Shown here in pieces: positions 36,935 through 55,246 of a DNA stretch of 64,000 bases. The first letter of the stretch is position 1. Every line of letters begins with the position of its first letter. The position numbers were made by a program, and so were the translations under genes. The stretch covers positions 1-64,000 of the forward strand of contig NZ_QJKC01000009.1 in assembly GCF_003202035.1 (NCBI RefSeq), written 5' to 3'. The notes under the pieces are model-generated. The model saw nothing but the letters and a program-made list of their open reading frames with translations, did no database searches and had not been told where the DNA came from. The DNA is from Aquitalea magnusonii (GTDB lineage Bacteria; Pseudomonadota; Gammaproteobacteria; Burkholderiales; Chromobacteriaceae).

Positions 36935-39678
36935 CCACCTTGCAACAAGGTCAGTAGCGCCGCGCCATCCAGTCTGGCTGCCAGATCCCCCCCTGCCAGC
37001 AAGCTGTCGGCCAGCGCGCGTTTTTCCGCATGCAGGGCGACGATTTTCTCTTCGATAGTGTTTTCCGCCACCAGCCGGTACACCGTCACCGGCCGCTGCT
37101 GGCCCATGCGGTAGGCACGGTCGCTGGCCTGGTCTTCCACCGCCGGGTTCCACCACGGGTCCAGATGAATCACATAGTCCGCTGCGGTGAGGTTCAGCCC
37201 GGTGCCACCGGCTTTCAGGCTGATCAGGAAGACCTCGCCCACACCAGCCTGGAAGGCATCCATGCGTGCCTTGCGCTGCTTGCCCGGTGTGGCACCGTCC
37301 AGATACTGGTAGGCAATGCCTTGTTCATCCAGCCATGCGCGCGCCAGCGCCAGATGGTCGACAAACTGGCTGAACACCAGCGCCTTGTGGCCGTTGTCCA
37401 ACAGCTCGGTCATCAGCTGACGAAAGAAGGCAAACTTGCTGGCGGGCAGGGCGGTATCCGGCTGTAACAAGGCCGGGTGGCAGCAGAAGCGGCGCAAGCG
37501 GGTCAGCTCGGCCAGCACCTGCATGGTCTTCTTGTCCTGGCTGTCCACCTCGGCCAGCTTTTGCAGCGCCTGCTGGCGCATGGCCTCGTACACATGCAGC
37601 TCCTGCTCGGACAGGGCAATACGGCGGGTGATGTCGGTGCGCGGTGGCAGCTCGGTCAGCACCTCGGCCTTGGTGCGGCGTAACAGATAAGGCTGGATCA
37701 GCGCCTTGAGCGTGGCGCGGGCTTCTTCGTCGCCCTCGGCGATGGGCTGGGCAAAGCGCTGCTGGAAGCGCTCCTCATTACCCAGCAAACCGGGCGTGAT
37801 AAAGCGGAACAGGCTCCACAACTCGCCCAGATGGTTTTCCACCGGCGTGCCACTGGCCGCCAGGCGAAAATCCGCCCGCAGGCTTTGTGCCGCCTGCGCG
37901 CGCTTGGTACCCGCATTCTTGATGGCCTGCGCCTCGTCCAGCACCACGCTGGCCCAGTGCACCTCGGCAAAATCGTCCGCCTGCAATTGCAGCAGGCCGT
38001 AACTGGCAATCACCAGGTCCTGCGGCCCGACTGTGGATAAGTCGCGCTGCTGTTGATAAGGGCGCAAGCGCAGGCTGGGGGCAAAGCGGGCGGCTTCGGC
38101 CAGCCAGTTGAGCGCCACCGAGGTAGGCGCCACCACCAGTTGCGGGCCCAGATGCGCGCGGGCCAGCAATAGCGCCAGCGTTTGCACCGTCTTGCCCAGC
38201 CCCATATCGTCGGCCAGACAGGCCCCGGCACCGATATGCGCCAGCCGCGACAGCCAGGCAAAGCCTTGCAGCTGATAGGGCCGCAAGCTGGCTTGCAGGG
38301 TGGCAGGGACCTCAGGTTGAAAGGTAGCCAGGCTGTCCCAGCCTTGTTGCAGCTGCTGCCAGCCGGCGTCGCCGTCAAACTGGCCGATGTCCTCACCCAG
38401 CCCGGCCAGCAGCGGGGCGGCCAGCAGGCTGAGACGCAAGCCATCAGCCACCGCGTGATCGGCCAGCCGGGCCAATTGCTGCAACCTGGCTTGCAGACTG
38501 TCGGAGAGTACCAGCCAGTCCTGCTCGGACAGGCGCAGATACTGCCCGGGCTGATTGGCCAAGGCTTCCAGCAACTGACGCAGTTGCAGTACCCGGTCCT
38601 CATCCACCTGCACTTCACCCGTCACTTCCAGCCAGCCGTTCTTGCGTCTGGTTTTCAACCGCAGCTGCGGCAGCCCAGCCTGCGCCTGGATACGCATGCG
38701 CTGTCCCTGCGGCCAGACGCACTCCAGCCTCTGCGGGGCGATGGCCTGTAATTGCTGCAACTGCTGTACGACTTGCAGGGCCTGTTGCTGGTCGGCCAGC
38801 AGCCATTGCAGCACGCCATCTGGGTCGGGCCGGGCGCTCGCCAGCGCCGGGCAATCTTCCAGCAAGGCGGCCAGCGCCTGTTTTTCCTCGCTCAACTGGC
38901 GCTGAAAGCGGATGGCCTGGCCCTGAGACAAGGCTACTTGCTGCCATGGCCCGCGCCCCGGCGGATACCAGGCGGCCTGTTCCGCCACCCGGCAGCGCAG
39001 TTGCAGGCGTAAGCCTTCCGGCAATGGCGTGAGGACAGCAAACAAACGCGGGTCGGCCGGCATGGCGGGCAGGTCGGCGCCATCGTCCGCATCCACCAGC
39101 TCCACCGGCAGCCACGGCACCATGTCGCCGATGGCCTCCAGCAGCTTTTTGCGTGCGGCCACAGGCACGCTCAGGCGATGGCCCAGCAGCGCGGCCAGCT
39201 GGCGGATTTCCGGCCCCGGCCAGTACAGCAGCAGGCTGTTCGGGCCGCTGCGCTGCCACAGGCAATGCTGACAGGCGGCAATGCCGGGCGGGCTCAGTTG
39301 CAGCACCATCTGCTGTTGCTGGCGTTGTAGTAACAGGCTGATCTGGCCTGCTTCCAGCGTGACCGGCTGTTCCGGCTGTTCTTCCCAGAACAAGGCCGGA
39401 TGACCCAACAGCAAGGGCAGGGCGGCTTCGCCCTCCAGCTCGGCCAGACTGCTGCCATCGCTCAACTGATGGGTGCGCTCAAGCTGGCTGATCACCAGCC
39501 GGTCCTGCGCGCTCAGCCAGTCCCACTGCGCGGCCTGATCGAGCAAGCGCCCCAAGGGCAGCACGCGGCCACGGCTCCAGCCAGCGTCCTCCCGTTGCTG
39601 GATGCAGGGGGTGAGGCGGATACCGGCTTCATTGGCCAGAATGCGCCAGGCCAGGCGCTGCGAGGTGGTGGTAGGCAT
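36931..39678 (-). CDS. SNF2-family DEAD/DEAH-box helicase (HepA/RapA-related)
   Basis: Large 915-residue Swi2/Snf2 ATPase. The N-terminal ~440 residues are not recognised. The motor begins with the LRPYQLQGFAWLSRL Q-like motif, Walker A DDMGLGKTVQ, motif II VVLDEAQAIKN, SGTPVENHLGELWSLF (III), then the second lobe with LVFSQFVDHL, LISLKAGGTGLNLTAADYVIHLDPWWNPA and QASDRAYRMGQQRPV. This layout is typical of bacterial SNF2 proteins thought to remodel RNA polymerase or DNA-protein complexes. Motif II is DEAQ rather than DEAH. It ends against the CZB gene with a four-base convergent overlap. Confidence 0.9.
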   Translation of the reverse strand: MPTTTSQRLAWRILANEAGIRLTPCIQQREDAGWSRGRVLPLGRLLDQAAQWDWLSAQDRLVISQLERTHQLSDGSSLAELEGEAALPLLLGHPALFWEEQPEQPVTLEAGQISLLLQRQQQQMVLQLSPPGIAACQHCLWQRSGPNSLLLYWPGPEIRQLAALLGHRLSVPVAARKKLLEAIGDMVPWLPVELVDADDGADLPAMPADPRLFAVLTPLPEGLRLQLRCRVAEQAAWYPPGRGPWQQVALSQGQAIRFQRQLSEEKQALAALLEDCPALASARPDPDGVLQWLLADQQQALQVVQQLQQLQAIAPQRLECVWPQGQRMRIQAQAGLPQLRLKTRRKNGWLEVTGEVQVDEDRVLQLRQLLEALANQPGQYLRLSEQDWLVLSDSLQARLQQLARLADHAVADGLRLSLLAAPLLAGLGEDIGQFDGDAGWQQLQQGWDSLATFQPEVPATLQASLRPYQLQGFAWLSRLAHIGAGACLADDMGLGKTVQTLALLLARAHLGPQLVVAPTSVALNWLAEAARFAPSLRLRPYQQQRDLSTVGPQDLVIASYGLLQLQADDFAEVHWASVVLDEAQAIKNAGTKRAQAAQSLRADFRLAASGTPVENHLGELWSLFRFITPGLLGNEERFQQRFAQPIAEGDEEARATLKALIQPYLLRRTKAEVLTELPPRTDITRRIALSEQELHVYEAMRQQALQKLAEVDSQDKKTMQVLAELTRLRRFCCHPALLQPDTALPASKFAFFRQLMTELLDNGHKALVFSQFVDHLALARAWLDEQGIAYQYLDGATPGKQRKARMDAFQAGVGEVFLISLKAGGTGLNLTAADYVIHLDPWWNPAVEDQASDRAYRMGQQRPVTVYRLVAENTIEEKIVALHAEKRALADSLLAGGDLAARLDGAALLTLLQGG

Positions 39679-44643: not shown

Positions 44644-46056
44644 TCATTTCACATCCCCGCCCAGCGCCTTGAACAGCGCCACCAGGTTTTCTGCCTGTGC
44701 CTGCTGCGATGCCAGCCATTGTTCCTTTACCAGCGCCAGTTGCTGGCTTTGTGCCAGCACTTCAGTCTGTGCCGCTTCCCCCACCCGCAGGCGCTGCCGC
44801 GCGATGTCCAGCTGGCGGCCGGCCAGTTGCAGGCTGCTGTGCAAGGCTTGCTGGCGCTGCTCCTCTTGCTGATAGCGCAGCAAGGCGGTTTCGGTATCGG
44901 CCAGCGCAGCCAGCACTTTTTGCCGATAGGCCGCCAGCGCGGCATCGCGGGCTGCTTCACGGCCGCTGACCTGGTTTTTCAGCCGGCCTCCATTCAGCAG
45001 GGGCAGGCTCAGTTGCGGGCCGACATTCCAGAAACGGCTGGCCGCCGCGGTCAGCTTGCCTTCGTGGATGGAATCCCAGCCGCCACTGCCCACCAGCACC
45101 AGCCGCGGGTATTGCTCGGCCACCGCCACACCGATATCGGCGGTGGCGGCCGCCAGCTCGCGCTCGGCCTGGCGGATGTCGGCACGGCGGCGCAGCAAAT
45201 CTGCCGGCAGCCCGATAGGCGGCTGTGCCAGGGTGGCCGGTATCGGCCGCTCGCCGGCCAGCCGCGCTGCCACCTCCGCCAGTGGCTGATCCAGCAATAC
45301 GCTCAAGGCGGTCAGCGCCGCGCCCTGTGCCGTCTGCAAGGGGGGCAGCGTGGCTTGCAGGCTGGCCACGCTGGCGGCTGCCTGGTTCAGTTCGCTGTCG
45401 GACACTTCGCCACTCTGCCGCAACAAGCGCGTCAGGCGCAGGGTTTCCGCTGCGTCGGCCAGCTGGGTTTGGGCATTGTGCTGGCGTGCCACCCAGCCGC
45501 GATAGTCGATCACATTGCGTGCCACCTCGGCCGCCACCCGCAGCGCGATATCCGCCTGTTGCTGCTGCAGGCTGTCCAGCCTGGCGCTGGCCGCCTCACG
45601 GCTGCGCGCGGTATGGCCGAACAGGTCGATTTCCCAGCTGGCATCCAGCCCCAGCCGGTAGTCATTGAAAGCGGTTTTGGGATTGGCCAGCGGGATATTG
45701 GCAAAGTTTTCGCTGTTGCGGCTGAACTGGTCACGGCCGCTACGCGCGCCGGCACTCAGTTGCGGCCACAAGGCGCTGTCCACCTGGCCCAGGCTGGCGC
45801 GGGCCTGACGCACCCTTGCCTCGGCCTGCGCCAGATCCAGATTGGCCTGCAATGCCTGCTCCACCAGCTGGCTGAGGGCGGCATCGTCAAACACCGTCCA
45901 CCACTGCGGCTGTACCGTCTGGCTGGCCGTACTGGCTGGCTGGAAATGGTAGTGCGCGGGCAGGCTGCTGGCCGGTGGCTGGTAATCCGGCCCCACCGCG
46001 CAGGCGCCTAGCGCAGCACTGCTCAGGAAAAGGAAAATCCGCTGGCGAGATGACAT
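44644..46056 (-). CDS. NodT/OprM-type outer-membrane efflux lipoprotein
   Basis: TolC-like channel component of a tripartite exporter, 470 residues. It has a lipoprotein signal (MSSRQRIFLFLSSAALGAC, lipobox LGAC) followed by VGPDYQPP, the hallmark of NodT/OprM lipoproteins, and two outer-membrane efflux repeats with long coiled coils. DLLRRRADIRQAERELAAATADIGVAVAEQYPRL marks the second repeat. Its start overlaps the upstream permease stop, so it is the last gene of the TetR-MFP-ATPase-permease-permease-OMF operon. Confidence 0.92.
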   Translation of the reverse strand: MSSRQRIFLFLSSAALGACAVGPDYQPPASSLPAHYHFQPASTASQTVQPQWWTVFDDAALSQLVEQALQANLDLAQAEARVRQARASLGQVDSALWPQLSAGARSGRDQFSRNSENFANIPLANPKTAFNDYRLGLDASWEIDLFGHTARSREAASARLDSLQQQQADIALRVAAEVARNVIDYRGWVARQHNAQTQLADAAETLRLTRLLRQSGEVSDSELNQAAASVASLQATLPPLQTAQGAALTALSVLLDQPLAEVAARLAGERPIPATLAQPPIGLPADLLRRRADIRQAERELAAATADIGVAVAEQYPRLVLVGSGGWDSIHEGKLTAAASRFWNVGPQLSLPLLNGGRLKNQVSGREAARDAALAAYRQKVLAALADTETALLRYQQEEQRQQALHSSLQLAGRQLDIARQRLRVGEAAQTEVLAQSQQLALVKEQWLASQQAQAENLVALFKALGGDVK

Positions 46057-47153
46057 CAGTGACTCCTGCGCAAGAACATCAGATAGGCCAGTGCCAGCGT
46101 GCTGGCGGCAATGGCCAGCAGCGGCCACAGCTGTGGCCAGGCTTCAGCCAGGCCATAACCCTTCAGGAAGATGCCCTTGACGATGATGATGAAGTGGCTG
46201 AGCGGGTCCACCGCGCTGACCATGCGCAGTGGCAGGGGCATGTTTTCCACCGGGGCCATGTAGCCGGACAGAATCACCGCTGGCGACATAAAGGCAAACG
46301 AGCCCAGGAAAGCCTGCTGCTGATTGCTGCTGAGGGCGGAAATCAGCAGGCCGAAACCCACCAGCGACAGCCCGTAGCACAGCATGGACAGGATCAGCAG
46401 CCCCAGCGTACCGCTGAATGGCACCTGGTAAACCCACACTGCCGCCGCCGCGATGATGCAGCCCTGCACCAGCGCCACCAGCATGCCGGGCAGGGCCTTG
46501 CCGGCCATGATGTAGCCCGGCGTCAGCGGCGACACCAGCAGTTGCTCGAAGGTGCCTTCCTCGCGTTCGCGGGCCAGCGACAGCGCGGTCACCATCAGGC
46601 AGCCGATGGTGGTGATGATGGCCACCAGGCTGGGCAGCACGAACCAGCGGTATTCCAGATTGGGGTTGTACAGGTTCTGCACCACCAGCCTGGCCGCCGG
46701 AGCCTGATGGCTGTGCTCGGCGGCAAACTGCTGGATCACCTGCAGGGCATAGCCATAGGCGATTTGCGCGCTATTGCTGCGCCGGCCATCGATGATGGCC
46801 TGGGCAGCCACGCTCTGGCCAGCCGCCAGCTTGCGCGACAGGTCTTGCGGCAGGCTGATGGCCAGCAGCGCCTGCTGGCGGTCGATCACCTGCTGCATCG
46901 CTTGCTGGCTGTGCAGCATCAGCACATGGGGAAAGGCCTGGGTGGCGGCCAGCCGCTGCACCAGTTCGATGGAAGCGGCGCCGCCATCCTGGTTGAACAC
47001 CGCCAGCGTGCTGTTTTTCACTTCCAGCGTGGCGGCAAACGGAAACAGCAGCAGTTGCAACAGTACCGGGGCGATCAGCAGGCGGCGGCTTTGCGGGCTG
47101 CGCAGCAGCGCCTGCATTTCCTTGCGGATCAGGGTGAACAGACGTTGCCACAT
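46056..47153 (-). CDS. ABC-2 type permease, YbhR-like
   Basis: Inner-membrane half-permease of an exporter, 365 residues. Layout is typical of ABC-2 drug exporters: one N-terminal helix, a large periplasmic domain (~45-175) and five C-terminal helices. The late ERE-EEGTFEQLLVSPLTPGYIMAGKALPGML segment is the family signature. It is one base from the other permease stop and pairs with it to form a heterodimeric channel, as in E. coli YbhFSR. Confidence 0.88.
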   Translation of the reverse strand: MWQRLFTLIRKEMQALLRSPQSRRLLIAPVLLQLLLFPFAATLEVKNSTLAVFNQDGGAASIELVQRLAATQAFPHVLMLHSQQAMQQVIDRQQALLAISLPQDLSRKLAAGQSVAAQAIIDGRRSNSAQIAYGYALQVIQQFAAEHSHQAPAARLVVQNLYNPNLEYRWFVLPSLVAIITTIGCLMVTALSLAREREEGTFEQLLVSPLTPGYIMAGKALPGMLVALVQGCIIAAAAVWVYQVPFSGTLGLLILSMLCYGLSLVGFGLLISALSSNQQQAFLGSFAFMSPAVILSGYMAPVENMPLPLRMVSAVDPLSHFIIIVKGIFLKGYGLAEAWPQLWPLLAIAASTLALAYLMFLRRSH

Positions 47154-48278
47154 TTAATTGCCATCCAGTCGGCGCGGTGTCCGCCAGGCGGTCAGCCCCA
47201 GCCAGAAGGCGGCGGACAGCAGCAGAAACAGCAGGTTGATCAGCAGCACCGGCCAGATTTCACCAGCCTGGAATAGCGTCTGCAGGGCGCTGACAAAATA
47301 GCGCGCCGGAATCAGGTAAGTCACCGCCTGTACCGCCAGCGGCATGCTGCGGATTTCAAACACGAAACCGGACAGCATGATGGCCGGCAGAAAGGCCGCG
47401 GTCAGCGCAAACTGGGCGGCAATGAACTGGTTGCGCGTGGTGGTGGACAGCAGCAGGCCCAGCCCCAGCGCACTGCCCAGAAACAGGCTGGTCACCAGGA
47501 ACAATACCCACAACGAACCGCGTAGCGGCACCCCCATCACCAGCGTGGCCACCAGCACGCACATGCTCATGGCGGCCATGCCCAGCAGGTAGTAGGGAAT
47601 GATCTTGGACAACAGCAGCTCGGCCCGGGTCACCGGGGTGGACAGCAAGGCTTCCATGGTGCCGCGCTCCCATTCGCGCGCCACCACCAGCGAGGTAAGC
47701 AGCGCACCGATGATGGTCATGATCACCGAGATGGAGCCGGGCACCAGGTAATTGCGGCTGACCGTAGTCGGGTTGAACCAGTAACGCGCCTCTAGCGTCA
47801 GCCCGGCGGGCTCTGCCTGGCCTGACTGGCGCTGGGCCTGCCACAGCTGGAATACGCCCTGCACATAGCTGGCGACAAAATTGGCGGTATTGGGTTCGGC
47901 ACCATCGGTCAGCAGCTGGATGGCGGCCGCGCCCTGACCTTGCCTGACCTTGGCCGAGAAATCGCTGCGCAGGATCACCACGCCGCGCACGCTGCCCAGC
48001 TGCAATTGCTGGCGCATGGCGGCTTCGGAGCTCGACAGGCTGGCGGCGATATAGGGCGAGGCTTGCAGGGTCTGCACCAGACGGCTGGCTTCCACCCCGC
48101 CATCCTGCTGCACAATGCCCAGACGCACACGGTTGGCATCCAGATTGATGCCATAGCCGTAGATGAACAGCAGCAACACCGGCAGCACAAAGGCAATCAG
48201 GATGCTGCTGGGATCACGCACGATCTGGTAGCTTTCCTTGCGGCACAGCGCGACAAGGCGGCGCAGGCTGAGGCTCAT
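47154..48278 (-). CDS. ABC-2 type permease, YbhS-like
   Basis: Partner permease, 374 residues with the same architecture: N-terminal helix, periplasmic domain to ~180, then five helices including WERGTMEALLSTPVTRAELLLSKIIPYYLLGM. Start overlaps the ATPase gene by four bases. With the fused ATPase, MFP and outer-membrane protein it forms a full envelope-spanning exporter of YbhGFSR type; related E. coli systems export chloramphenicol-class drugs, cations or lipophilic dyes. Real substrate unknown. Confidence 0.88.
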   Translation of the reverse strand: MSLSLRRLVALCRKESYQIVRDPSSILIAFVLPVLLLFIYGYGINLDANRVRLGIVQQDGGVEASRLVQTLQASPYIAASLSSSEAAMRQQLQLGSVRGVVILRSDFSAKVRQGQGAAAIQLLTDGAEPNTANFVASYVQGVFQLWQAQRQSGQAEPAGLTLEARYWFNPTTVSRNYLVPGSISVIMTIIGALLTSLVVAREWERGTMEALLSTPVTRAELLLSKIIPYYLLGMAAMSMCVLVATLVMGVPLRGSLWVLFLVTSLFLGSALGLGLLLSTTTRNQFIAAQFALTAAFLPAIMLSGFVFEIRSMPLAVQAVTYLIPARYFVSALQTLFQAGEIWPVLLINLLFLLLSAAFWLGLTAWRTPRRLDGN

Positions 48279-50038
48279 GTGGCCTCCCGCTGCCGGTCAT
48301 CGCGCTCCACCAGCGCGATAAAGGCGTCTTCCATGCTGGGGTCGGGCAGTTCAGCACTGACCACCATGGCCTTGAGTGCGTCCGGCGTGCCGGCGGCGAT
48401 CATGCGCCCGCGATACACCAGGCCGATACGGTCGCAATATTCGGCTTCGTCCATGAAATGGGTGGTCACCATCACCGTCACCCCCTTGTCGACCAGGCCA
48501 TTGATATGGCTCCAGAATTCGCGGCGGCTGACCGGGTCCACCCCGGAGGTGGGCTCGTCCAGAAACAATAGCGGTGGCTGGTGCATCAGCGCGCAGGCCA
48601 AGGCCAGCCGCTGCTTGAAGCCCAGCGGCAGTTCACCGGCATTCATGCTCAGGAAAGGGTGCAGCGCAAACACCCGCACCATGTCGGCCACTGCCGCGCG
48701 CTGGCGCGCACCAGACAGGCCATAGATGCCGGAGAAGAATTCCAGGTTCTGCGCCACGCTGAGGTTGCCGTACAGGGCAAATTTCTGCGCCATATAGCCG
48801 ATTTGCTGGCGTGCCTGGCTGGCGGACTGTTGCAGGTCCAGCCCCATCACCCGCGCCGCGCCGCTGCTGACCGGCAGCAGGCCGCACATCATCTTGAAGG
48901 TGGTGGATTTGCCCGCGCCATTGGGGCCGAGCAGGCCGAAGATTTCGCCACGGCGGATGCGGAAATCCACATGATCGGTGGCGACAAAATCACCAAAGCG
49001 GCGGGTAAGCTGCTCGGCCACGATGACGGCGTCGGCATCCACTCCTTCCGGCAGTCGCGCGGGCGGCATGTGTTCGGTCAGCGGCGAATCGCCACCCGGC
49101 CCGCCGCCCAGCAAATCGATAAAGGCATCTTCCAGCCGCGGCTTTACCTGTTGCAGGCGGGCATCCGGCCCGGCCTGCAGGCTGGCCAGATCAGGCAATA
49201 CCCCGGCCTCACGCAACACCAGTCGCACCGCATGGCCTTGCAGCGCGCCGTCGATCACCGCAGGGCTGCGTAGCGCCCGCTGCAGCACCTGCCGCCGGTT
49301 GCCGGCAATATCCTGCAACAGCAGGCTGCGCCCCTGCATGCTGTCCATCAGCGCTTGCGGGCTGCCGCTGTATTGCAGACGGCCTTCGTGCATCAGCAGC
49401 ACTTCGCCGCACAGCTCGGCCTCGTCCAGATAGGAGGTACTCCACAGCACCGCCATGCCGCCATCGGCCAGACTGCTGACCATGCGCCACAGCTCACGCC
49501 GCGAAATGGGGTCCACCCCGACACAGGGTTCGTCCAGCAACAGGATGCGCGGCGAGCCCAGCAGGGTGCAGGCCAGCCCCAGTTTCTGTTTCATGCCGCC
49601 GGACAGCTTGCCGGCCAGCCGTTCGGTAAAGCGCGCCAGATCGGTAAAGGCCAGCAGGCGCTGAAAACTTTCCTCCCGCGCCGCGCCGGTGACACCGCGC
49701 AGATCGGCATACAGGGTGAGGTTTTCCAGCACGGACAGGTCTTCGTACAGGCCGAATTTTTGCGGCATGTAACCCAGTTGCAGGCGTAGTGCATCGCCGG
49801 CCATCACCGGGTCCAGCCCCTCTACGCGTATGCTGCCGGCGCTGGCCTTGAGCAGGCCGGCCATCAGCCGCAGCAGGGTGGTTTTGCCGGCACCATCCGG
49901 CCCCACCAGCCCGGTGATCACCCCGCGGCGGATGTCGGCACTCAGCTCGCACAGCGCCGGCCGCCCGGCAAAGGTGTGGCTGACCGCCTGCAGGCGGATG
50001 GCGATGGCGTCCGTGCTGGCCGTCATGGACGGATTCAT
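48275..50038 (-). CDS. Tandem ABC ATPase, YbhF-like
   Basis: A 587-residue protein with two fused nucleotide-binding domains. Domain 1: Walker A GPDGAGKTT, signature LSGGMKQKLGLAC, Walker B ILLLDEPCVGVD, switch region Ser in WSTSYLDEAE instead of His. Domain 2: Walker A GPNGAGKST, signature ELPLGFKQRLALAC (not LSGGQ), Walker B LLFLDEPTSGVD, switch His in TTHFMDEAE. The sites thus differ from canonical in a complementary way, suggesting one active and one degenerate composite site. The ATG at 50038 overlaps the MFP stop (ATGA); a longer frame is a shadow. Confidence 0.9.
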   Translation of the reverse strand: MNPSMTASTDAIAIRLQAVSHTFAGRPALCELSADIRRGVITGLVGPDGAGKTTLLRLMAGLLKASAGSIRVEGLDPVMAGDALRLQLGYMPQKFGLYEDLSVLENLTLYADLRGVTGAAREESFQRLLAFTDLARFTERLAGKLSGGMKQKLGLACTLLGSPRILLLDEPCVGVDPISRRELWRMVSSLADGGMAVLWSTSYLDEAELCGEVLLMHEGRLQYSGSPQALMDSMQGRSLLLQDIAGNRRQVLQRALRSPAVIDGALQGHAVRLVLREAGVLPDLASLQAGPDARLQQVKPRLEDAFIDLLGGGPGGDSPLTEHMPPARLPEGVDADAVIVAEQLTRRFGDFVATDHVDFRIRRGEIFGLLGPNGAGKSTTFKMMCGLLPVSSGAARVMGLDLQQSASQARQQIGYMAQKFALYGNLSVAQNLEFFSGIYGLSGARQRAAVADMVRVFALHPFLSMNAGELPLGFKQRLALACALMHQPPLLFLDEPTSGVDPVSRREFWSHINGLVDKGVTVMVTTHFMDEAEYCDRIGLVYRGRMIAAGTPDALKAMVVSAELPDPSMEDAFIALVERDDRQREAT

Positions 50039-51009
50039 GGCCGGGCCAGCTTCACCGTTACCGGCATGCCCTGACGCAGGGCGGCGTCCGGCTGGCTGAC
50101 AATCAGCCGCAAACGATAGACCTGGGCGGTGCGCAGGTCGGCGGTTTCCACATTCTTGGGGGTGAATTCCGCCGTGGGTGAGACAAAGCCCACCACCGCG
50201 GCATAAGGCTGGCTGCGCCCATCGCGGTAAATCCATACCTTGCGTCCCGGCTGGGCCTGGCCCAGCTGCGGCTCGGCCACATAGGCACGCACCCATACCG
50301 GCTGGCGCAGCGACAGGGTCAGCACGCTGCTGCCGGCAGCCAGCATGCTGCCCGGTTCCACCGCCCGGGTGAGGATGATGCCGTCGGCCGGCGCGGTGAG
50401 CACGGTATCGGCCAGTTGCAGGCGCGCACTGGCCAGCTGCGCCTGGGCCCGTTTCACATTGGCGTCCACCTCGGCCACTTCCTGCGGCCGGTAACCCTTG
50501 CTCAGCGCCTGGTACTGCTGCTGTGCTGCCTGGTATTGCGCCTGCGCCTGATCATGGGCAGAGCGGGCGGCATCCAGTGCCTTGACTGCGGCGGCGCCGG
50601 TACCGGCCAGCTCCTGCTGGCGCTGCCAGGCGGCACGGGCATCGGTCAACGCCGCCTGACGGGCATCCAGTGCGGCACGGGCCTGGGCCACGTCTTCGGC
50701 CCGGTAGCCCTGATGCATCAGCGATTGCCGGGCCTGGAGTGCGGCCAGTGCCGCTTCGGCATCGGCCACGGCATTGCGTTGCGGTGCGTCGTCCAGCCGG
50801 CCCAGCACCTGCCCGGCCTTGATCTGCGCTCCTTCGTCCACCTGCAGTTGCTGCAAGCGCCCGCCCACGCGGAATGACAGGTTTACCTCGCGGATATCCA
50901 CATTGCCGGACAGCACCAGCTCATCCGCCGCCTGCTGCTGCTGCCACCACAGATAGGCAGCACCTGCCAGCAGCAAAAGGACAAAGCCGAACAGTACACG
51001 CTTGTTCAT
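50035..51009 (-). CDS. HlyD-family membrane fusion protein, YbhG-like
   Basis: Periplasmic adaptor linking the ABC permeases to the outer-membrane factor, 324 residues. One N-terminal membrane helix (VLFGFVLLLLAGAAYLWW), lipoyl halves LSGNVDIREVNLSFRVGGRLQQLQVDEGAQIKAGQ and VLTAPADGIILTRAVEPGSMLAAGS, a long alpha-helical hairpin between them (~95-205), then a beta-barrel domain. AGGAG eight bases before the ATG at 51009 supports this start; a GTG three codons upstream overlaps the TetR stop. Confidence 0.9.
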   Translation of the reverse strand: MNKRVLFGFVLLLLAGAAYLWWQQQQAADELVLSGNVDIREVNLSFRVGGRLQQLQVDEGAQIKAGQVLGRLDDAPQRNAVADAEAALAALQARQSLMHQGYRAEDVAQARAALDARQAALTDARAAWQRQQELAGTGAAAVKALDAARSAHDQAQAQYQAAQQQYQALSKGYRPQEVAEVDANVKRAQAQLASARLQLADTVLTAPADGIILTRAVEPGSMLAAGSSVLTLSLRQPVWVRAYVAEPQLGQAQPGRKVWIYRDGRSQPYAAVVGFVSPTAEFTPKNVETADLRTAQVYRLRLIVSQPDAALRQGMPVTVKLARP

Positions 51010-51014
51010 GTGAA

Positions 51015-51650
51015 TCACTCCTGGCTACTGAGGCCCTTGAGCGCCCAGTGCAATCGCTGTTGCAGATGAGCCGGTTCCAGCGCATAGCTGGCCAGCGCTT
51101 GTTGCAGCATGTCCGGCAACAGGGTCTTGCCGCTGCTCATTTGCTGCAGCAAGACCGGAAACCCCAGTGCCGACATCAGGAACATCAGCTGGTGCATGGG
51201 TGGAGCCTGGCCGATCTGTCCGGCTTGCTGTGCCTCTTGCAGGCATTGCAGCAATAGCTGGGGATGACGCGGCGCCAGATTACGGATGAATGCCAGCACG
51301 GCAGCCTCGCCGGAACCGGCATCCAGCAGCAGCTGGCTGATCAGGCCGCGCTGCTCGCGCAGGAAATCCATCAGTTGCAGCAGCATGGCGGACAAGCGGC
51401 TGAGCGCTGCGCCTTCTTGCTGCTGTACCGCCTGCAATTGCTGGTAGAGCGGCACATACCAGCACTCCAGCAGTTCGGCGGCAAATTGCTGGCGGCTGCC
51501 AAAGTGATAGACAAAGCTGCCGGGATTCACCCCGGCCTGCTGGCACAGACCGCGCACGGTCAGCTGGCGCAGACCATGCTGGCGCATCAGCTGCAAGCCG
51601 TGTTGCAGCAGCAGGCTACGGGTGGGATGAGAGGCTGGTTCGCTGTTCAT
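51015..51650 (-). CDS. TetR-family regulator (CecR-like) of the ABC export operon
   Basis: A 211-residue repressor with an N-terminal TetR helix-turn-helix (GLRQLTVRGLCQQAGVNPGSFVYHFGSRQQFAAELL) and a ligand-binding C-terminal domain. It is the first gene of the operon encoding the MFP, ATPase, permeases and outer-membrane factor, an order seen with E. coli CecR-ybhGFSR. A perfect palindrome lies just upstream of its start, the likely operator, so it probably represses its own operon until inducer arrives. Confidence 0.9.
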   Translation of the reverse strand: MNSEPASHPTRSLLLQHGLQLMRQHGLRQLTVRGLCQQAGVNPGSFVYHFGSRQQFAAELLECWYVPLYQQLQAVQQQEGAALSRLSAMLLQLMDFLREQRGLISQLLLDAGSGEAAVLAFIRNLAPRHPQLLLQCLQEAQQAGQIGQAPPMHQLMFLMSALGFPVLLQQMSSGKTLLPDMLQQALASYALEPAHLQQRLHWALKGLSSQE

Positions 51651-51658
51651 GCTGCCAA

Positions 51659-51676
51659 TTTATACATGTGTATAAA
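51659..51676. promoter_or_regulatory. Putative TetR-family operator
   Basis: TTTATACA-TG-TGTATAAA is a perfect 8-bp inverted repeat with a two-base centre, nine bases upstream of the TetR start codon. AT-rich, sharp and unique in this GC-rich stretch, it fits a TetR dimer site overlapping the operon promoter or leader. Confidence 0.65.
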
Positions 51677-51775
51677 AATGGCAAAACAATATTCAGCGCT
51701 TATTGATGCAAAACAGGAAAAAACCAGCGCCGCGTGGCGGGAGGGCAACAGCTGCCCGCTTGCCGCCTGGGCATA

Positions 51776-53032
51776 TCACTGCGGAAGGTGGGCCTGCAGC
51801 AGGGCCACAATACGCTGGCTGGCCCCGCGATGGGCGGCGGTAAAGGCCTGCGCCGCCTTGCTCATCTGCTGCCTGCGCGCAGCATCCTGCAACAGGCTGA
51901 GCGCCTGTGCCACCAGTTGTCCGGCATCGGCCACCTGCATGGCGGCGCCTGCCTCCAGCGCCAATTCACTGGCCTGGGCAAAATTGAACATGGACGGGCC
52001 AAACAGTACCGGCAGGCCCAGGCTGGCCGGCTCGATCAGGTTCTGCCCACCCAGCGGCAGCAGGCTGCCCCCGACAAATGCCACATCGGCACAACCATAG
52101 TAGGCAAACAATTCGCCCATGCTGTCGCCCAGCCAGAGGCTGGTGTCGGCGGCAAGGGGGGTGTTATCGCTGCGCCGCTGTACGGCAAGGCCCATGTCCT
52201 GCGCCAGCGCGGCCACGCTGTCGAAACGTTCCGGATGACGCGGCACCAGCAATAGCAAGGTATTGCCCACCGCGGCCTGCTGCCAGGCTTGCAGGATCAG
52301 TTGTTCCTCGCCCTCACGCGTACTGGCGCAAATGAATACCGGCCGGTTGCCGATGCGCTGGCGAAACTGTGCCGCCAGTTCCGCCATGGCGGCGGGCGGG
52401 GTGAAATCGTATTTGGTATTGCCACACACCACGGCAGAAACTGCACCCAACTGCTGCAAACGCTCGGCATCTTGCGGGCTTTGTGCGGCAATGGCGGTCA
52501 AACTGCGCAGGGCCGGACCAATCAGGCCCTGAATGCGGCGATAGCCGCGCAGCGATTTTTCCGACAGCCGCGCATTGGCCAGAAACAGCGGCACGCCTTG
52601 CTGCTGGGCAGCATGCAGCAGATTGGGCCATAGCTCGGTTTCCATCAGCACGCCAAAGCGTGGTTGCCAGATCGCCAGAAAATCGCGCACCGCAGCGGGA
52701 TAGTCATAGGGCAGATAACGTACTTCGGCATCGGGGTAAAGCTGGCAGGCGGTATCGCGGCCGGTGGGAGTCATCTGCGTCAGCAGCAGCGGTGCATCCG
52801 GCCATTGCTGGTGCAGCGCCTGGATCAGCGGCAGGGCGGCGCGGGTTTCACCGACAGATACCGCATGAATCCAGATGGCGCCGGTCGTCCGCGGCTGAGT
52901 CGCCTGGCCGAAACGTTCGTCCCAGTGCTGCAGATAAGCCGGGGCCTTGCGCGCCCGTTTTTTCAGATAGCGGCGGATCAGCGGCGTGGCCACCCACCAC
53001 AATAGCGAGTACAGCCCGCGCCGCCAGTTCAT
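51776..53032 (-). CDS. waaA: 3-Deoxy-D-manno-octulosonic acid (Kdo) transferase
   Basis: Attaches Kdo to lipid A precursor at the inner membrane. The 418 residues have the N-terminal anchor (LYSLLWWVATPLIRRYLKKR), IWIHAVSVGETRAALPLI with the essential Glu, VLMETELWPNLLHAA, and the nucleotide-sugar domain with FICASTREGEEQLIL, VPRHPERF, LGDSMGELFAYYGCADVAFVGGSLLPLGGQNLIEPA. The ATG overlaps the waaC stop (ATGA). A single locus for inner-core LPS with waaC upstream. Confidence 0.94.
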   Translation of the reverse strand: MNWRRGLYSLLWWVATPLIRRYLKKRARKAPAYLQHWDERFGQATQPRTTGAIWIHAVSVGETRAALPLIQALHQQWPDAPLLLTQMTPTGRDTACQLYPDAEVRYLPYDYPAAVRDFLAIWQPRFGVLMETELWPNLLHAAQQQGVPLFLANARLSEKSLRGYRRIQGLIGPALRSLTAIAAQSPQDAERLQQLGAVSAVVCGNTKYDFTPPAAMAELAAQFRQRIGNRPVFICASTREGEEQLILQAWQQAAVGNTLLLLVPRHPERFDSVAALAQDMGLAVQRRSDNTPLAADTSLWLGDSMGELFAYYGCADVAFVGGSLLPLGGQNLIEPASLGLPVLFGPSMFNFAQASELALEAGAAMQVADAGQLVAQALSLLQDAARRQQMSKAAQAFTAAHRGASQRIVALLQAHLPQ

Positions 53033-53988
53033 TGCATGTCCTTGCGCGCCAGCAAGGCCTGATACACCACATCGACGCTTGGGCACTGGCCGATATTTCC
53101 CAGATTGGTGGCCCAGGCGGTTTCCACCACGCCGGTCTTGCTGGGGTCGGTATCGGTATAAATGGCCACCAGCGGCACATTCAGCGCATTGGCCAGGTGA
53201 CACAGGCCGGTATCCACGCCAATGACGGCGCGGGCATGGCCCAGCAAACCGCAGGCTTCGATCAGGTTGATGCGCGGTGCCACCATGGCCTGCGGCATGG
53301 CCGCCGCCAGACGGTTGGCCCGCTGCTGTTCGGCGGCATTACCCCAGGGAATGATCAGTTGCAGGCCGTGCCGTGCAGACAGCTGTTCACCCAGTGCAAT
53401 CCAGTGCGATTCCGGCCATTCCTTGGATGCACGGCTGGTGGCATGCAGCAGCACGGCGTATTGGCCTGGCGGCAACCAGTCTGGCCGGGCTGCCGCCGGC
53501 ACGCCAAAACGCGGGCTGCCCTCCGGCTGGTAACCAAATACCTTGGACAACAGCAAGCGGCAGCGCTCGACCGCAGACAGCGACCAGTCGACACGGTGGG
53601 TCTTGTCATACAGCAGGCAGGCCAGCGGTTCGCGAATGCTCTGTCTGTCGTAACCGGTCAGCGGGGCGCAGCTGAGCTTGGCCGGCAGCGCACTTTTCAA
53701 CAGGCCCTGGCAATCCACCACCAGCTCCCAGCGGGTGGCACGCAAGGCACGGCGCATGGCCCTGATTTCTGCCCAGGTGGCCGCGGACAGCAGGTTTTTG
53801 CGCCAGCGCCGCCAGGCCAGGGTAATGACTTCATCCACCGCCGGGTGCAAACGGGCGATGTCAGCGAAATTTTCTTCGGCCAGCCAGCTGATGCGAAGGT
53901 TGGGGTAGTGCGTTTTCAGCTCGGTAATGGCAGGCCAGGTGTGGATAAGGTCGCCCATCGACGAGGTACGCACGATCAGTACGTTCAT
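53029..53988 (-). CDS. waaC: LPS heptosyltransferase I
   Basis: Adds the first L-glycero-D-manno-heptose to Kdo in the LPS inner core. The 319 residues start MNVLIVRTSSMGDLIHTWPAI, the family hallmark with the catalytic Asp, and include LVVDCQGLLKSAL, VLLHATSRASKEWPESHW and the C-terminal GVDTGLCHLANAL nucleotide-binding stretch. Starts at 53991 or 54000 are also possible; I chose the one matching family length. One exact DnaA box (53940-53948) lies inside its first codons. waaA follows with coupling. Confidence 0.93.
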   Translation of the reverse strand: MNVLIVRTSSMGDLIHTWPAITELKTHYPNLRISWLAEENFADIARLHPAVDEVITLAWRRWRKNLLSAATWAEIRAMRRALRATRWELVVDCQGLLKSALPAKLSCAPLTGYDRQSIREPLACLLYDKTHRVDWSLSAVERCRLLLSKVFGYQPEGSPRFGVPAAARPDWLPPGQYAVLLHATSRASKEWPESHWIALGEQLSARHGLQLIIPWGNAAEQQRANRLAAAMPQAMVAPRINLIEACGLLGHARAVIGVDTGLCHLANALNVPLVAIYTDTDPSKTGVVETAWATNLGNIGQCPSVDVVYQALLARKDMQ

Positions 53989-54430
53989 CATGGCGCGCAT
54001 TGTAACCGAGCGTCACTGTGGTTAACCACGTAAAATCCACAGGCAGCATTTGTGGATAAGCAGCTGTGAATAATTCCGCCCATATTTATCCACAATCTGC
54101 CAGCGCTCCCGCCACCCGATTAATCCCAGTGCCATCAACAGGGCAAGTGACTGAACAGATAACGCTTTTTAAGGGTTATCAACAGAAAAGCACTGCTCTC
54201 ATTAGTCTCTTCATAATAAAATTAGGCTTAAGATAACTAATCTGGACACGACAAAAATGTGTATGCACAGACCGGTCTGCTCAAGTCTCTGACAGCATGT
54301 GGATAAACCCGGTCTGTTGCACACTGCCAAAGTTATCCACAAAGGATCATGTCTTCAGTCATCTGCTGACCAACAACTTCCAGTCAGCAATAAATCATTG
54401 AATAAACTGGTAAATAAGGACTTATCCACA
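53940..54430. other. oriC: Candidate chromosomal replication origin (DnaA-box cluster)
   Basis: Six exact 9-mers TTATCCACA lie within about 490 bases: minus strand at 53940-53948, 54051-54059 and 54298-54306; plus strand at 54086-54094, 54333-54341 and 54422-54430. Near matches include TTATTCACA (54065-54073, minus) and TTATCAACA (54176-54184). An AT-rich stretch (54195-54245) could be the unwinding element. Genes on each side diverge from here. Two parS-like sites lie 12 kb left and 8 kb right. A DnaA-titrating or DnaA-regulated locus is the alternative. Confidence 0.75.
54268..54279. repeat. 12-bp palindrome within the origin-like region
   Basis: CAGACCGGTCTG is a perfect palindrome in the middle of the DnaA-box cluster; its right half CCGGTCTG recurs at 54309-54316, just after a DnaA box. 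It may be a site for an origin-binding regulator. Confidence 0.5.
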
Positions 54431-54487
54431 GCAAGTGGGCTTCTTCTACCAGTTTCTTCCATATACATATGGGAATAACAAGAAAAG

Positions 54488-55246
54488 ATGCGAGAACCGC
54501 TCAGCGTTGTGCTCATCACCAAAAATGCTGCTCTCCAGCTGGAAAAAACACTGGCCAGCGTGCAGTGGGCAGATGAAATCGTGGTGGTGGATTCGGGAAG
54601 TACGGATGAAACCGTGGCGATAGCTTCTGCCTATAAGGCAAAAGTTATCCACCAGGACTGGCTGGGATTTGGTCCGCAGAAGCAATTTGCCGTTGCTGCT
54701 GCTAGCCATGACTGGGTGTTGTGCCTGGATGCAGACGAATGGCCATCGGCAGAATTGGTATTGCAAATCAAACAGATACTGAACAATCCACAGGCAGCCG
54801 CCTACCGCTTTGCCCGCAGCAACCGTTTCATGGGTCGTTTTCTCAAGCATGGCGAAGGCTACCCGGACTGGAGCCTGCGGCTGTTTGATCGCCGTCAGGC
54901 AGGCTGGTCCGATGATGTGGTGCACGAATACGTACAGTGCAATGGACCTGTGGAAAAACTCTGCGGCGACCTGATGCATGAATCAGGCGAGGACATCGCG
55001 CTGTATCTGGCCAAACAGAACCGCTACACCAGCTTGCAGGCAGAAATGCTGTATAAACGCGGGAAAACTGCGGGATGGGCCAAGCTGGTGTTCAGCCCCT
55101 TGCTGCGCTTTGCCAAGTTTTACCTGGTACGCCGTGGTTTTCTGGATGGTTTGCCCGGACTGGTCCACATCAGCATTGGCTGCTTCAACAGCTATATCAA
55201 ATACGCCAAGCTCAATGAGCTGCATCGATTGGGAAACAGGAAATGA
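54488..55246 (+). CDS. WaaE/LgtF-type family 2 glycosyltransferase
   Basis: GT2 enzyme of the WaaE/LgtF (KdtX) kind that adds a sugar, often beta-1,4-glucose, to heptose I of the LPS core. The 252 residues show LSVVLITKNAALQLEKTLASV, ADEIVVVDSGSTDETVAIA, the DXD-like CLDADEW, and RLFDRRQAGWSDDVVHEYV. Divergent from waaC across the origin-like gap, it fits the inner-core LPS theme. Its ATGA overlap with the epimerase gene indicates joint translation. One near-exact DnaA box (TTATCCACC, 54645-54653) lies inside it. Confidence 0.9.
   Translation: MREPLSVVLITKNAALQLEKTLASVQWADEIVVVDSGSTDETVAIASAYKAKVIHQDWLGFGPQKQFAVAAASHDWVLCLDADEWPSAELVLQIKQILNNPQAAAYRFARSNRFMGRFLKHGEGYPDWSLRLFDRRQAGWSDDVVHEYVQCNGPVEKLCGDLMHESGEDIALYLAKQNRYTSLQAEMLYKRGKTAGWAKLVFSPLLRFAKFYLVRRGFLDGLPGLVHISIGCFNSYIKYAKLNELHRLGNRK

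Follow-up and report, generated by a model that had tools for sequence, protein, structure and literature searches.

Two tandem copies of a DnaA-binding module between waaC and a glycosyltransferase-like gene very probably form the chromosomal origin of an Aquitalea species

Introduction

The chromosomal origin of Escherichia coli lies away from dnaA, and it is not yet settled how a single bacterial origin loads two helicases that face opposite ways. According to an excerpt of PMC10225481, E. coli oriC sits between gidA/mnmG and mioC. The published rule for the BUS of Bacillus subtilis asks for three consecutive trios (excerpt of PMC8287927), and the bipartite origin of Helicobacter pylori unites two box clusters in one origin (excerpt of PMC8235120). 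Laribacter hongkongensis, which has been compared with Chromobacterium and Neisseria, has an oriC with eight DnaA boxes as predicted by Ori-Finder (excerpt of PMC3135505).

Here we describe a cluster of DnaA boxes in a draft Aquitalea genome (G000; 4,405,446 bases, 49 contigs). The window, i.e., the whole stretch of 64 kb that was analyzed, comprises bases 1-64000 of contig C9. Judged from sequence comparison, the cluster is very probably the chromosomal oriC of an Aquitalea species, in which waaC and a glycosyltransferase-like gene flank two tandem copies of one DnaA-binding module. Like the origin of E. coli, it would be an origin with DnaA boxes that coincides with the skew minimum and lies away from dnaA; unlike it, the neighbors are waaC and the glycosyltransferase-like gene, the module is repeated, no IHF consensus was found, and mnmG is located on another contig (C10) that carries no exact box. 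The resemblance to the BUS of B. subtilis lies in the third box and what follows it, namely some 9-12 bp of spacer, triplets CTT/CTA (read as 3'-GAA/GAT-5' on the opposite strand) and AT-rich DNA, yet most relatives studied here have two consecutive trios instead of three. A predicted oriC with several DnaA boxes is shared with L. hongkongensis, for which the excerpt of PMC3135505 gives neither the neighbors nor a repeated module. As in H. pylori there are two box clusters in one origin, but here they are two copies of one geometry, each with its own AT-rich tract (the H. pylori layout was not compared). The probable oriC is of a known kind and the tandem module is the new part. The titles and abstract openings listed in our literature searches mention no oriC at waaC and no duplicated oriC module, and the only text on a related bacterium that came up was the L. 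hongkongensis prediction; an automatic prediction in DoriC or in supplements may well exist.

The box cluster and its neighbors

The original prediction of six exact DnaA boxes is borne out: TTATCCACA occurs at 53940(-), 54051(-), 54086(+), 54298(-), 54333(+) and 54422(+). The whole window holds seven exact boxes where 0.16 are expected, and none of 100 shuffles reaches seven. Spanning 491 bp, the cluster contains six of the 27 exact boxes in the genome (nine for the reversed control) and is the densest one genome-wide, the next being a group of four past thiC (C9:69927-70160) and a pair on another contig (C11:34698-34733). Weaker matches had been announced as well and are located at 54017, 54065, 54176, 54261 and 54470. 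The boxes had been placed in the gap and the start of waaC; the box at 53940 lies inside the waaC coding sequence and not in the gap. The locus is made up of the following parts.

53029 to 54000, minus strand: waaC, lipopolysaccharide heptosyltransferase I, left neighbor (TIGR02193, 380.5 bits, cut-off 185.3)
53940 to 53948, minus strand: exact DnaA box in waaC, coding for L-I-H of the SMGDLIHT motif of the protein
54016 to 54037, plus strand: conserved left arm TGTGGTTAACCA[AC]GTAAAATC, with the box-like TTAACCACA at 54017
54051 to 54258, plus strand: module 1, with boxes at 54051(-), 54065(-, TTATTCACA), 54086(+) and 54176(+, TTATCAACA), then an AT-rich tract at 54198-54258
54298 to 54480, plus strand: module 2, with boxes at 54298(-), 54333(+) and 54422(+), then CTTCTTCTACCAGTTTCTTC and an AT-rich tract to about 54480
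54488 to 55246, plus strand: glycosyltransferase-like gene, right neighbor (glycosyltransferase family matches, all under curated cut-offs)

An AT-rich stretch had also been foreseen, and two segments, 54198-54258 and 54366-54426, are indeed of low predicted duplex stability. With -69.7 and -73.0 kcal/mol they are the fifth and eighth least stable non-overlapping 60-bp stretches in the window (mean -93.9 kcal/mol, sd 5.5), four stretches elsewhere in the window being less stable than the first. The cluster shows two of the features expected of an oriC, boxes far above chance and, in terms of predicted duplex stability only, an AT-rich element alongside. The exact IHF consensus is absent from 53940-54520; a degenerate site may be present there.

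The leucine codon of the box at 53940, CTT, is rare (it accounts for 17 of the 831 Leu codons in 15 genes of the window). Even so, CTT-ATC-CAC-AC is conserved at the waaC motif in 23 of 26 relatives, and none of the 16 motif matches obtained from waaC loci of other families (16 loci) reads CTTATCCAC. The combination suggests selection acting on the DNA within the waaC coding sequence.

The protein of the right-hand neighbor has its nearest named relatives in Aquitalea (94% identity), and most genomes of the Chromobacteriaceae family set contain a strong match to the gene. In another Aquitalea genome (G006, C70:41169-41920) it is matched as two pieces with one internal stop. The genes had been said to diverge from the cluster, which holds close to it: eight genes at 44644-54000 are on the minus strand and the first three rightward on the plus strand. 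The contig-wide bias is only modest, with 30 minus and 18 plus to the left and 71 plus and 62 minus to the right on C9 (all by a crude GC3 gene call). The rRNA operon supposed at the left edge is not there, as the window has no Rfam match at gathering score; it has no tRNAs either. Further right, C9:63587-68000 is low in GC (0.408 at 64001-68000) and has matches to families of serine and tyrosine recombinases on its flanks; this is likely a mobile island, some 10 kb away from the origin.

A module present twice

The module consists of a box on the minus strand, a box on the plus strand at +35, a further plus-strand box 88-90 bp on and an AT-rich tract. The window has two tandem copies, with third boxes 89 or 90 bp further, at a distance of 247 bp from each other. 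Both copies are present in all 27 aligned loci (the window and 26 relatives), with one of the 54 modules spaced 88, and the geometry is found in none of 5400 shuffled sequences, where the shuffles, as those for the BUS rule below, preserve base composition only. All 42 family genomes examined at the locus, out of a family set of 57, have both modules (32 loci were retrieved via the neighbor genes and ten via their box pair), and the exact divergent box pair alone is present in 40 of the 57. The copies lie 246-247, 255-259, 311 or 337-340 bp apart in those 42 genomes; the inner geometry is therefore nearly fixed, whereas the distance between the copies varies.

A scan of 399 genomes of the order, limited to one spacing (third box at 89) with three mismatches allowed, gave matches in 14, namely in 12 of 13 genomes of the family and two of six of sister family f49, all at the waaC locus. 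None was obtained in the 380 genomes outside these two families or in the reversed control, and one family member that has both modules in the family locus scan (G022) was missed. In a looser scan of five f49 loci, three had two modules and the remaining two had one each; the 16 waaC loci of other families gave none, opposite-strand matches with four or five third-box mismatches being regarded as spurious. Box counts in the 1 kb upstream of the right-hand gene were obtained for 32 of 78 loci (the first 27 and five distant controls). There, 25 of the 26 aligned relatives, which exclude a Methylococcales MAG with one box (L070), have five to seven exact boxes and the remaining one (L069) has three only, while none occurs in the five distant controls.

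Alignment of the loci shows conserved box blocks and unconserved spacers. In both modules, CAA-N4-5-TGA precedes the third box by about 30 bp, and a tract resembling CTTCTACCAGTTTC[TA]TC, followed by AT-rich DNA, lies about 10 bp past it. When the parts outside the boxes are compared, the two copies are most alike in register: downstream the likeness is 0.45 at shift +1 versus 0.25-0.32 at shifts of at least 3, and upstream it is 0.36 at +1 versus 0.22-0.28 at shifts of at least 2. We applied the BUS rule as a box, a spacer of 0-16 bp and at least three NAN trios. At the third boxes it is satisfied in 11 of 27 loci for module 2 (6.7 expected) and in five of 27 for module 1 (7.7 expected), frequencies close to or under those of chance. 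The conserved arm left of module 1 satisfies it in 21 of 27 (5.0 expected), and this arm could alternatively be part of the waaC promoter.

Another reading is that the boxes serve as DnaA control of the promoters of two divergent genes, without origin function. The divergent intergenic gap and the conserved tracts directly upstream of each gene would fit such a role. Module 1, however, does not abut the right-hand gene, and both modules stay in five genomes (G010, G015, G023, G024, and G025, with loci found by their boxes) in which the best glycosyltransferase match lies elsewhere. Together with the skew evidence given below, this leaves promoter control with a negligible probability.

GC skew and the position of dnaA

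On C9, the cumulative GC skew declines weakly until about 52 kb, after which it climbs over 150 kb. Four relatives were traced densely. In a complete Aquitalea chromosome (G002; 4,359,891 bases) the lowest point of the skew in a 440-kb stretch falls on 1,155,390, 0.12 kb from the homologous boxes at 1,155,513-1,156,003. Twenty 20-kb samples of this chromosome reveal a single minus-to-plus turn at 1.00-1.20 Mb, bracketing the cluster, and a single plus-to-minus turn at 3.20-3.40 Mb, an interval that contains the cluster's antipode (3.34 Mb). In a genome of another genus (G027), the lowest value within 1-440 kb falls on 238,322, 1.5 kb off the boxes at 236,334-236,834, and the coarse plus-to-minus turn at 2.52-2.74 Mb includes the antipode at 2.61 Mb. 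The distance between minimum and cluster is 5 kb in G226, a member of sister family f49, and 13 kb in G055, the weakest case. A skew minimum elsewhere, which would have spoken against the original prediction, was thus not seen on C9, G002 or G027.

The skew also bears on an alternative reading, in which the cluster would be a datA-like or titration locus where DnaA is bound to adjust initiation, and the true origin would lie elsewhere. High-affinity boxes near the origin are expected of datA too, which is near oriC in E. coli (excerpt of PMC10380432), and another conserved box cluster is present 10-16 kb away. Yet datA predicts no skew minimum with a terminus opposite, and the genome has no denser cluster. 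The minimal datA moreover has an IHF site with DnaA boxes 2, 3 and 7 (excerpt of PMC10380432), whereas 53940-54520 lacks the exact consensus. We rejected an identity with datA on the skew minimum and consider such a locus very unlikely. The cluster does not have the core of a DARS either, i.e., head-to-head boxes I and II with a box III: its pairs are divergent with a start spacing of 35, against 14 and 12 measured in E. coli.

A second arrangement would have the origin within some kilobases, e.g., at the four-box cluster past thiC (C9:69927-70160), and leave the present cluster as an accessory. The skew minima are coarse enough to allow for this in G055 and G226, but those of G002 and G027 are close to the present cluster, in G002 the minimum is 12 kb from its three-box cluster, and it is the two-module form that is kept family-wide. 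Such a displaced origin is therefore highly improbable, and the two-module cluster is preferred as oriC.

The gene dnaA is found at C3:265853-267220 with one exact box upstream. Over 200-329 kb of C3 the skew falls overall but levels off or rises slightly at 276-308 kb, without a lasting turn at dnaA. In all 12 single-contig relatives, dnaA is about 75-300 kb from the cluster, the box pair or the neighbor gene, as computed by hand with box positions partly from the matches listed (in G032 and G040 the neighbor gene was seen and the box cluster itself was not). It starts at 1,286,942 in G002 and at 266 in G027; the start of the gene falls among the first 300 bases in G027, G037 and G040, with the box pair or the neighbor gene about 146-236 kb away. 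One exact box occurs at dnaA in ten of the 12 genomes and none in the two starting at the contig start. Neither a better box cluster, which would also have spoken against the original prediction, nor a skew turn thus accompanies dnaA, and an origin there was rejected, as was one at mnmG given the lack of exact boxes on C10. The predicted separation of origin and dnaA is supported by the skew turn at the cluster and by these distances. For Aquitalea, Chromobacterium, Vogesella and relatives, some of whose records are numbered from dnaA, the site would provide an origin landmark. Transcription of dnaA is directed towards the cluster, against the expected fork, in eight of the 12 genomes (G002, G003, G004, G015, G020, G023, G027, and G037) and away from it in four (G021, G032, G040, and G055).

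Proposed mechanism of initiation

We envisage that DnaA would occupy the high-affinity boxes, with the box within waaC anchoring the left edge of the origin. Starting at the third box of a module, a filament of ATP-DnaA would extend rightward onto the AT-rich tract that starts about 10 bp on. One or both AT-rich tracts would then melt, and DnaB would be loaded for two forks. A further-reaching and rather doubtful idea is that the origin consists of a tandem of two DnaA assemblies, both complete, phase-locked, equipped with an unwinding tract of their own and paired family-wide. Each may load one of the two helicases, or each may be able to fire independently. On this view the origin would have remained at waaC while dnaA ended up 75-300 kb away, and the box in the waaC motif would have aided this. 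We know of no chromosomal oriC described as working via two tandem complete assemblies. A repeated origin module with a fixed inner geometry and a variable distance between the copies would make the loading of two helicases testable.

Other box clusters in the genome and in relatives

In the small genomes of f43, which are probably Neisseriaceae, boxes gather around waaC in a looser manner. In G290, 19 of 47 exact boxes are loosely spread within 23 kb around waaC (C1:2313085-2336306), and in G098 ten of 26 are within 12 kb (C1:1578255-1590300). Less clear are G169, with six boxes 15 kb from waaC, and G223, with three of 20. This spread over 12-23 kb contrasts with the tight cluster in Aquitalea. 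The 5-kb skew samples of G290 are -0.002, -0.001, -0.105 and +0.026 to the left of waaC and +0.132, +0.073, +0.067 and +0.081 to the right. In view of this gathering of boxes and the G290 skew, an origin near waaC may be older than the family of Aquitalea, while the two-module form is seen only in the family and f49.

The four exact boxes past thiC are about 16 kb from the origin. Among the matches listed, G002, G003 and G004 have three or four boxes at a distance of 10-13 kb, to the same side of the cluster. Direct box pairs with a start spacing of 29-30 occur at C9:69927-70160 and also in G015, G020 and G027. Elsewhere in the window, at 38032-38059, an exact box and TTATCAACA are 19 bp apart within an ORF matching Snf2-type helicase families.

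The boxes at C11:34698-34733 (L029, L260) form a convergent pair, TTATCCACA-18 nt-TGTGGATAA, with a weak inner box. BLAST of this 36-base element against E. coli genomes gave no match. Its start spacings are 15 and 12, close to those of 14 and 12 in the bioD-uvrB and rppH-mutH gaps of E. coli, which we take to be the locations of DARS1 and DARS2; the element is a candidate DARS. Such a pair is present in 32 of the 57 family genomes (9/9 of g1, 18/19 of g2 and 5/12 of g9). By hand, and among the matches listed, it is located at about 0.55-0.7 of the path from origin to antipode in G002, G003, G004, G015 and G020.
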